Of a stretch of DNA of 64,000 nucleotides, positions 28,560-30,165 are shown piece after piece. The DNA lies in the NCBI RefSeq assembly GCF_900105385.1, contig NZ_LT629772.1:186001-250000 (forward strand), written 5' to 3'. The notes below the pieces were generated by a model that ran no database searches, was not told the origin of the DNA, and was given only the letters and a program-made list of their open reading frames with translations. The translations under genes and the position numbers were made by a program. Within the stretch, counting starts at the first letter, position 1. Every line of letters begins with the position of its first letter. Source of the stretch: Microlunatus soli. Its GTDB lineage: Bacteria > Actinomycetota > Actinomycetes > Propionibacteriales > Propionibacteriaceae.

Positions 28560-28682
28560 GTGCCGTTCGGTGTGGCTGAGGGGGCGCTGGGTGGGTCGGG
28601 CGTTTGCAACTCAGCTGGTCGAGCTTGCGAGACCAGGTGAGGCTGCGAGGGCGGGCGCCCCCTCAGCCACACCGAACGGCAC
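28560..28682. repeat. Large hairpin: perfect 28-bp inverted repeat around a REP-like palindrome
   Basis: The arms at 28560-28587 (starting GTGCCGTTCGGTGTGGCTGA) and 28655-28682 are perfect reverse complements. The 67-nt spacer contains a second hairpin CTGGTC...GACCAG at 28615-28636 whose loop GAGCTTGCGA is related to the TTCGACAAGCTC motif seen elsewhere in the window. The right arm ends exactly where the IS110 element appears to begin. It may be an interspersed repetitive element or the original terminator of the minus-strand UPF0182 gene. Confidence 0.75.
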
Positions 28683-28689
28683 CCCCCGT

Positions 28690-28860
28690 TACCTTTCTGG
28701 TGGCCCTTGAGGCAAGGGCTTCGGTCGCCGGGCTTGGTATGACTTACTGCCCCTGTTGTCAATGATCCGGGGGGTGTTGTCGCCGGGCCGGGTGGCATCG
28801 GGTGACCGCTGATAGGGACACGGCCCAGTGAGGTCTCGTCGTAACGTGGCTGCCGGGACT
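28690..28860 (+). ncRNA. Candidate bridge RNA of the IS110 element
   Basis: The region lies between the left element end and the transposase gene, where IS110-group elements encode a bridge RNA. It starts with a perfect hairpin GCCCTTG-AGG-CAAGGGC (28703-28719). ATAGGGACAC at 28812-28821 is identical to the right end of the element (30117-30126), as a left donor guide should be. GTAACG at 28841-28846 is the reverse complement of CGTTAC at the left end (28687-28692), as a right donor guide should be, and pairing extends to 8 of 9 bases. GGGGGGTG at 28770-28777 is complementary to CACCCCCC at the insertion site and may be a target guide. RNA ends and folding are inferred. Confidence 0.55.
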
Positions 28861-28905
28861 TGATGCCTGATCGGTGACCGACTCGACCGCAGAGGAGAGT
28901 CAGCG

Positions 28906-30108
28906 TTGGATGCAGACGAGCCGATCACGATCTGGTGCGGACTTGACGTCGGCAAGAGTGCCCATCACGCATGCGCGCTGGACAGGCAGGGCCACCGCGT
29001 CTTCGATGCCGAACTGCCGCAGGACCAGGAACGCCTGGAACGACTGTTCACCGAGCTAGCTGCTCGAGGACGAGTCCTCGTCGTGGTCGATCAACCCAAC
29101 ACGATCGGCGCGCTGCCGGTCGCGGTCGCTCGGGCGATGGACATCGAGGTCGCCTACCTGCCAGGGCTGGCGATGCGGCGGATCGCCGACTTGCACCCCG
29201 GCAGCGCCAAGACCGATGCCCGCGATGCCTATGTGATCGCCGATTCTGCCCGCACCATGCCGCACACCCTGCGCCGGGTCGACGTGGGCGAGGATGTGTT
29301 GGCTGAGTTGAAGGTGCTGATCGGATTCGACGACGACCTCGCTGCCGAAGCGACACGGTTGAGTAATCGGATCCGTGGCCTGTTGACACAGATCTTTCCT
29401 GCCCTGGAAAGGATCCTGGGCCCCCGCCTGCATACCAAGGCTGTGCTCGCGTTGATCATGAAATACGGCGGACCGCGGGGCATGGCAGCGGCCGGCCGAG
29501 CAAGGATGATTACGACCGCTACCGCAGCCAACCGCCGGGGCGCGGCAGAACTCGTCGACCAGATCGTCTCCGCACTGGCCGAGCAGACCGTCACCGTCCC
29601 CGGCGCAGCAGCAGCCGAACGCGTCCTGCCCAGGCTCGCCAAGAGTCTGACCGAGGCCCTGGATCAGCGGGCTCACCTGGCAGCCGAGGTTGAACAGGTG
29701 CTCGATGCTCACCCTCTTGCCGAGGTCCTGACCTCGATGCCCGGCGTTGGGGTCAGGACCGCAGCAAGAATCCTCGTCGAAGTCGGCGACGCGTCCACCT
29801 TCCGCACCAGCGGCCACCTGGCTGCCTACGCCGGCCTCGCCCCGGTCACCCGACGATCCGGCACTTCGATCCGCGGCGAGTTCCCGGCACGTTCGGGCAA
29901 CCGCCACCTCAAACGAGCGTTCTTCCTCTCCGCGTTCGCAGCACTACGGGCCGACCCGGCCAGCCGGGCCTACTACGACCGCAAACGAGCCGAAGGCAAG
30001 AAACACAACGCCGCACTCATCTGCCTGGCGCGACGCCGCTGCGACGTCCTCCACGCCATGATCAGAACCCGAACTGTCTACCGCCCAAAGCTACCCGCAA
30101 CCAGTTGA
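28906..30108 (+). CDS. IS110-family DEDD transposase (bridge-RNA-type recombinase)
   Basis: The 400-residue enzyme has the N-terminal RuvC-like DEDD domain (WCGLDVGKSAHHACALD with first Asp, VVVDQPNTIGALPVA, SAKTDARDAYVIADSAR with the paired Asp residues). It also has the C-terminal Transposase_20 domain (LTSMPGVGVRTAARILVEVG, AAYAGLAPVTRRSGTS) with the conserved Ser region (RSGNRHLKRAFFLSAFAALR). All core motifs are intact. The start appears to be TTG 28906, preceded by AGAGGAGAG. The nearest ATG is out of frame. The stop codon lies only about 20 bp from the right end of the element. Confidence 0.9.
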   Translation: MDADEPITIWCGLDVGKSAHHACALDRQGHRVFDAELPQDQERLERLFTELAARGRVLVVVDQPNTIGALPVAVARAMDIEVAYLPGLAMRRIADLHPGSAKTDARDAYVIADSARTMPHTLRRVDVGEDVLAELKVLIGFDDDLAAEATRLSNRIRGLLTQIFPALERILGPRLHTKAVLALIMKYGGPRGMAAAGRARMITTATAANRRGAAELVDQIVSALAEQTVTVPGAAAAERVLPRLAKSLTEALDQRAHLAAEVEQVLDAHPLAEVLTSMPGVGVRTAARILVEVGDASTFRTSGHLAAYAGLAPVTRRSGTSIRGEFPARSGNRHLKRAFFLSAFAALRADPASRAYYDRKRAEGKKHNAALICLARRRCDVLHAMIRTRTVYRPKLPATS

Positions 30109-30165
30109 CATCCGACATAGGGACACCCCCCCACCAAGATCGCGATAGGAAGCGAGGGTGAGCGA

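Follow-up and report, generated by a model that had tools for sequence, protein, structure and literature searches.

The stretch of DNA analysed here (the window) comprises 64,000 nucleotides of the Microlunatus soli genome (contig NZ_LT629772.1, positions 186,001 to 250,000), and all positions below are those of the window. On its forward strand lies an insertion sequence of the IS110 group, which extends from about position 28688 to 30126, beginning with GTTACC and ending with ATAGGGACAC if the junction of its joined ends is read as carrying a single C. A second copy (L016) is present elsewhere in the same 6.73-Mb genome; over 28685-30134 the two copies differ at two positions, of which only 29987 lies inside the element and 30132 belongs to the right flank, and the extent of this match, together with the ends seen across the family, fixes the ends of the element. 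The noncoding ends then measure 218 bases to the left of the recombinase gene and 18 bases to the right of its stop codon. A perfect 28-bp inverted repeat (28560-28587 and 28655-28682, with a 67-nt spacer) adjoins the insertion on the left, and the stretch 28600-28680 recurs at six further sites of the genome (L017-L022) with 82-94% identity, resembling a dispersed intergenic repeat. Targeting of such a repeat (REP) was considered and rejected, because the window copy adjoins the 28-bp inverted repeat and the second copy does not.

The recombinase gene (28906-30108, forward strand, TTG start) encodes a protein of 400 aa with the domains DEDD_Tnp_IS110 (PF01548) and Transposase_20 (PF02371). 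The protein matched the NCBIfam model NF033542, 'IS110 family RNA-guided transposase', with 226.6 bits against a cut-off of 140, and phmmer matched it to the solved IS621 and ISCro4 recombinases in the C-terminal domain. D14, D62, D104, D107 and S318 were conserved in 94 to 101 of 101 rows of the family alignment with gaps counted as misses, and of the 98 relatives with a residue aligned to D62 (29089-29091), which is the second acidic position of the RuvC-like site, 97 carry D. The recombinase of IS621, an IS110-group element of E. coli, likewise has a RuvC-like domain and a Tnp domain with a Ser-Gly pair (S241-G242, aligned with S318-G319 here), but is shorter (328 aa) and has E60 where, by spacing, D62 stands here. 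Three further IS110 recombinases in the same genome (L013, L014 and L015) are more distant, with 25-27% identity and, for two of them, equal score.

The family comparison was based on 80 relatives (the best 80 of 177 confirmed), to which pattern hits were added together with further loci from two genome searches: one at E 1e-60, where 4 of 57 genomes had loci, and one within the class at E 1e-90, where 19 of 394 did, the window's genome being counted in both. From 129 extracted loci, 118 had a protein stretch of more than 250 residues, and these gave 101 distinct elements, the window copy and L016 not among them. Within the 101, the left donor guide and the right end could both be read in 81, the left end and the right donor guide in 95, and the right target guide and the right flank in 83. 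Right ends were located by a consensus pattern without the guide; since this pattern fixes some letters, strongly divergent right ends were missed, and that of L096 (AAAAGG type, Propionibacterium record) was not found in its contig. Covariation was mapped on a FastTree phylogeny of the recombinases with 200 branches. Five copies (L036, L037, L041, L070 and L104) have some 500-1200 bases between the end of the recombinase match and the right terminus motif, and for this reason may carry cargo or inserted sequence.

The left noncoding end is predicted to encode an RNA that begins with a hairpin of 7 bp at 28703-28719 (GCCCTTG-AGG-CAAGGGC), which is perfect, as the initial annotation of this DNA had described it. 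A target-binding stem-loop follows at 28724-28796 (stems 28724-28737/28783-28796 and 28740-28743/28779-28782), and then a donor-binding stem-loop at 28794-28867 (outer stem 28794-28801/28860-28867, inner stem 28806-28809/28852-28856), all on the forward strand. Among the left ends of 96 sequences, both stem-loops show compensatory pairs, many of them in the target-binding one, and four of the five consensus pairs of the 5' hairpin are kept in 85-93 rows, with the outermost kept in 71. The consensus fold of these 96 left ends, for which the guides were not specified, paired CGTTAC with GTAACG, each pair being present in 95 or 96 rows; A-U replaces G-C in 6 of them and U-A replaces C-G in 8. The extraction pattern fixed some letters of terminus and guide and allowed all combinations at the two variable places, and the fold treats as RNA a terminus that would be DNA in the cell. 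Folded singly, the RNA was thermodynamically no more stable than shuffles (z -0.20). A covariance-model search of the left end had been suggested as a check and, carried out with Rfam, gave no supporting match: three sub-threshold matches to unrelated families only were seen for the window region, and four relatives, one of them the second copy, gave no family at the gathering score. A plain scan of the inserted form for a promoter and a terminator found neither.

In the donor loop, ATAGGGACAC at 28812-28821 is identical to the right terminus of the element at 30117-30126, and the reverse complement of the left-terminal CGTTAC (28687-28692) occurs as GTAACG at 28841-28846, with 19 nt (28822-28840) between the two segments. 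All three observations had been made in the initial annotation and were reproduced by direct reading of the forward strand. The former segment is assigned as the left donor guide (LDG), which reads the left donor half (LD) at the right terminus, and the latter as the right donor guide (RDG), which pairs with the right donor half (RD) at the left terminus and may continue to pair up to 28848. The complementarity had also been extended over 8 of 9 pairs into the C-run; if the junction is read as carrying one C, the guide can instead pair without a bulge as GTAACGTG/CACGTTAC. Taken alone in a single sequence, each match is only mildly unusual, with a chance of about 1-2%: of 1953 random 26-nt stretches of the window, 21 had a direct match of at least 10 nt with the left end, and of 5000 random 6-mers, 90 had a reverse complement within 28822-28861.

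It is the family comparison that raises these matches above chance. The ends of related copies vary, and the guides vary along with them, where ends that varied without guide changes had been named beforehand as the result that would speak against the assignment. The LDG and the right end are identical over four bases in 79 of 81 elements and occur in five types (57 GGGA, 11 GAGG, 8 GGGG, 2 GAGA and 1 AGGA), the third base being set by the right-end anchor and the other three free; in the two exceptions (L090 and L092) a G-U pair is possible. At the two variable places, the RDG can pair with the left end in 93 of 95 elements by full complementarity (78 + 8 + 7), L187 keeping a G-U pair and L175 having a mismatch, and the compensatory swaps CGTTAT/ATAACG and CATTAC/GTAATG (left end/RDG) occur on several branches. 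On the tree, 6 of 8 LDG changes and 6 of 7 left-end changes fall on the same branch as the change of the partner, where about 0.3 would be expected for each (hypergeometric probability under random placement on 200 branches, 9e-9 and 6e-10 respectively).

Within the target loop, the right target guide (RTG) is GGGGGG at 28769-28774 and is predicted to pair with the C-tract to the right of the cut. In a first set of 51 distinct right flanks, C was found at 90-100% for each of the six places past the right-end motif and at 46% for the seventh. One of the 83 elements with a readable RTG and right flank was cut by a contig end; the others comprise 70 with a G6 guide and 12 of a T-type, with AAAAGG or AAAAAG guides and CCTTTT or CTTTTT sites, such as L106 and L120, which have the guides AAAAGG and AAAAAG and then CCTTTT and CTTTTT. 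An exact CCCCCC flank is present in 62 of the 70 (mismatches in 8), and guide and site fit in all 12 distinct T-type elements. Four of the five RTG changes lie on the same branch as the partner's change, with about 0.3 expected (hypergeometric 5e-5). Covariation with the respective partner is thus seen, in the sequences compared, for the LDG, the RDG, the RTG and the stems.

A further search used the RNA only and selected, in 392 genomes of one genus, taken as Streptomyces, loops whose fourth guide base is not G. Twenty matches were obtained in 16 genomes, two of which (L180 and L181) are not elements; a right end was read in 15 of the 18 elements, none being found by the pattern in L176, L179 and L183. 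Guide and site fit in 14 of these 15, AAAAGG going with CCTTTT in 11 of 11 and AAAAAG with CTTTTT in 3 of 4 (L190 has CTTTTA), and the 15 include L173 and L188, which are the L106 and L120 insertions already seen. The L106 site (Streptomyces albospinus) recurs in the searched genus at 98-99%. Six T-type elements (L174, L175, L176, L179, L183 and L188) have a common left flank ending in TTCGCCCCC, which is the conserved L120 site and which, by eye, looks like an IS5-type transposase gene.

For the left target guide (LTG), the sequence comparison suggests TACTGCCCC at 28745-28753, which matches both local sites at 4 of its 9 positions; the four matches of the window copy all lie in the C-run, as do three of the four of L016. 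In a register test over 108 sites, the match was above shuffles at offsets 0 and -1 (0/1000), but also at the control offset +4 (0/1000 over nine bases, 2/1000 over the first five), and this signal at the control offset indicates that relatedness inflates the test and that the shuffles overstate its significance. An earlier and smaller test (87 sites) looked cleaner.

The joined flanks of five insertions (L106, L120, L119, L131 and L136) were searched in 295 genomes of the same genus. The L106 site is empty in one genome, with 98% identity over query positions 1-406, and reads GACAG-CCCCC-TTTT-GG; in G717 (72% identity) its junction was unreadable and was left out. For the L120 site there are many insertion-free homologues, of which 12 of the 23 read show TTCG-CCCCC-TTTTT and the rest variants thereof, a 10-nt C/T tract being present in 20 of the 23 (not in L152, L153 and L160). 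As the empty sites hold the T-tract uninterrupted, the C/T tract is host DNA chosen by the element.

Comparison of occupied with empty sites favours a donor junction that carries one C, ATAGGGACA-C-GTTAC, or ATAGGGRCA-C-GTTAC in the form of the family. When L106 is compared with L138, a single C remains to the donor (4 + 2 - 5), and in L120 and L175 a sum of 11 across both junctions gives the same; L174 gives one C if its sixth T is the A of the homologues and otherwise two. Two C may also stand at the donor junction, given the L120-site homologues with four C. Gap-free counts at the C-only sites (L119 against L168, L136 against L139) had pointed to a donor junction of at least two C, but C-runs change in length between species, the number of C at these sites was too variable to use and the T-anchored sites give one, so this reading was rejected. 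With one C at the junction, it follows that the long C-run at each end is probably for the most part target DNA.

Among the 89 elements in which both junctions were read, 83 have C as the first core base at the left junction and A at the right one; false right ends (L183, L195 and L212) were left out of this count. The remaining six are L129 and L134, with A at the left, L111, with G at the left, and L032, L044 and L099, with C at the right. In IS621, both top strands are reported to be cut just 3' of a CT core (PMC11208160, PMC11208158). Applying this cut position here suggests a donor core AC and a target core CC, with which the first core bases above agree; only the second base is then shared, which may represent a tolerated mismatch or a one-base core. 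L129 and L134 are two copies in one genome in which A replaces C at the first core position of the left junction and the target guide contains eight G; these features are possibly traces of core-mismatch resolution.

A candidate -35 box, TTGACA (30105-30110), overlaps the stop codon TGA of the recombinase gene (30106-30108), and a candidate -10 box of the form TANNNT, TACCTT (28690-28695), lies at the left end, both on the forward strand; the two are joined only in a circular form, with a spacing of 18 nt in the window. Across the joined ends, TTGAC(N) is followed by TANNNT in 79 of 79 elements with both ends, at 18 nt in 62 and at 17 nt in 17. The background for TTGAC is 1.1% of random 21-mers of these loci, and coding constraint contributes to its conservation since TGA is also the stop codon in the window; in the -10 box the final T is present in 79 of 79, and the TA, as part of the search anchor, provides no test. 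The sequence feature TTGACA-18-TACCTT suggests a junction promoter, comparable to the sigma-70 promoter that is reported to be rebuilt across the circle junction in IS621 (PMC11208160, PMC11208158).

Taking these features together, we consider that the insertion sequence belongs to the IS110 group and that a bridge RNA guides the recombination by which it moves, with a probability of about 0.93 on sequence evidence. By all sequence features tested, apart from the LTG match and a shared core dinucleotide, the element is a bridge-RNA element of the IS110 group. In the proposed mechanism, the recombinase would excise the element as a circle with the joined ends ATAGGGACA-C-GTTACC, this junction would form a sigma-70-like promoter, and an RNA would be transcribed from about the 5' hairpin through the target and donor loops. 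In the donor loop, the LDG (28812-28821) would read the right end and the RDG (28841-28846) pair with the left end, while in the target loop the RTG (28769-28774) would pair with the C-tract and the LTG (28745-28753) with the sequence to the left of the tract, and the recombinase would then join donor and target. The LTG (9 nt) would cover the left target up to the cut, the RTG and RDG (6 nt each) one base to the left of it and five to the right, and the LDG (9-10 nt) the left donor half.

Repeated end motifs are common in transposons, and ATAGGGACA and CGTTAC could instead be protein-binding repeats (iterons) that the recombinase reads as DNA with no RNA guide, for which the strong conservation of both end motifs may be cited. 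We regard this as very unlikely: the guide model requires one direct and one inverted match, which is what is seen, the stems whose loops contain both motifs show compensatory changes, and the target guide covaries with host DNA outside the element, which a protein-site model does not predict. That the guide matches reflect chance or shared ancestry without function would agree with the 1-2% for each match in a single sequence, but is hardly credible beside the same-branch co-changes (6/8 for the LDG, 6/7 for the left end, 4/5 for the RTG) and the 14 correct sites out of 15 in the RNA-only search.

A different question is whether the C-tract after ATAGGGACA belongs to a bridge-RNA element itself and not to its target. 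Nearly all G6 elements have six C after ATAGGGACA, and the gap-free counts at L119/L168 and L136/L139 leave more than one C if the lengths of the C-runs are unchanged; against this, a sub-clade reads CCTTTT or CTTTTT at the same place, element-free homologues (L138 and those of the L120 site) hold the T-tract, and near-identical copies differ there (CCCCCC in L063, L064 and L066, CCCCCT in L067). A tract within the element is thus improbable, if somewhat less so than the iterons, and we retain the reading in which it is target DNA.

The initial annotation had proposed a new bridge-RNA recombinase. As a new member of the group this stands; it is not a new kind, such recombinases having been known since 2024, and one more bridge-RNA element is to be expected given that bridge RNAs are reported as predicted in 85.7% of IS110s (PMC11208160). 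The fit to the bridge-RNA model in order and orientation, also noted in the initial annotation, was borne out by the reports on IS621, where the left-end RNA likewise consists of a 5' stem-loop, a target loop and a donor loop (PMC11208160, PMC11208158), with the guides in the order LTG, RTG, LDG and RDG and with the same polarity, the left guide reading as the top strand and the right guide pairing with it. IS621 differs in its RTG of 4 nt against 6 nt here, longer RTGs being described for some orthologues (PMC11208160, PMC11208158), in its split RDG, which here can pair contiguously, and in that the target guide of the window element is a homopolymer and its target and donor cores are CC and AC.

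Among the best ten plasmid records listed, the closest named relative was ISRhosp8 of Rhodococcus (annotation of NC_008271.1), with 70.2% DNA identity over 93% of the query. It shares the LDG ATAGGGACAC, the RDG GTAACG, the RTG GGGGGG, TTGACG before the right end and a CCCCCC flank, and differs in its LTG (CCTTGCCCC against TACTGCCCC), its host and its sites. ISEc21, described with its seekRNA (PMC11187229), is also of the IS110 type with an upstream noncoding region and an RNA that matches both target strands, and its target lies in the transposase gene of another IS family, which may hold for the six T-type relatives here; its target is different, however, and it belongs to a cluster with shorter recombinases of 345-385 aa (PMC11187229). 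Elements of the IS1111 group have a DEDD recombinase and a guide RNA as well (PMC11208160, PMC11208158, PMC11187229), but the guide RNA is usually downstream of the gene, with long subterminal inverted repeats, whereas it is upstream here, and the long right end of the IS1111 type is absent from the window element, which has 18 bases past the stop.

Candidates for all four guides of this element can be read from sequence, and covariation supports three of them. In the literature covered, including PMC11208160, PMC11208158, PMC11187229, PMC12500396 and PMC11946415, neither a C-tract target code nor natural retargeting of this kind was found described. With D in place of E in the active site and a longer protein, the recombinase is a useful distant comparison for IS621 and ISCro4. 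We tentatively propose, at somewhat less than even odds, that this actinobacterial clade represents a natural re-aiming of the bridge RNA, in which the target code is a six-base homopolymer half-guide that accepts any C6 and to which the left guide adds little, has switched from C6 to C2T4 and C1T5 with the sites following, and tolerates a mismatched core (donor AC, target CC) of which one shared base is enough. The natural target code, runs of C, is unusually simple. If the LTG and the first core base matter little, recognition would follow a looser rule than in IS621, which bears on the specificity attainable with such recombinases. The RTG has changed naturally along with the insertion sites, and this provides evidence from evolution for a re-aiming of bridge RNAs in nature.
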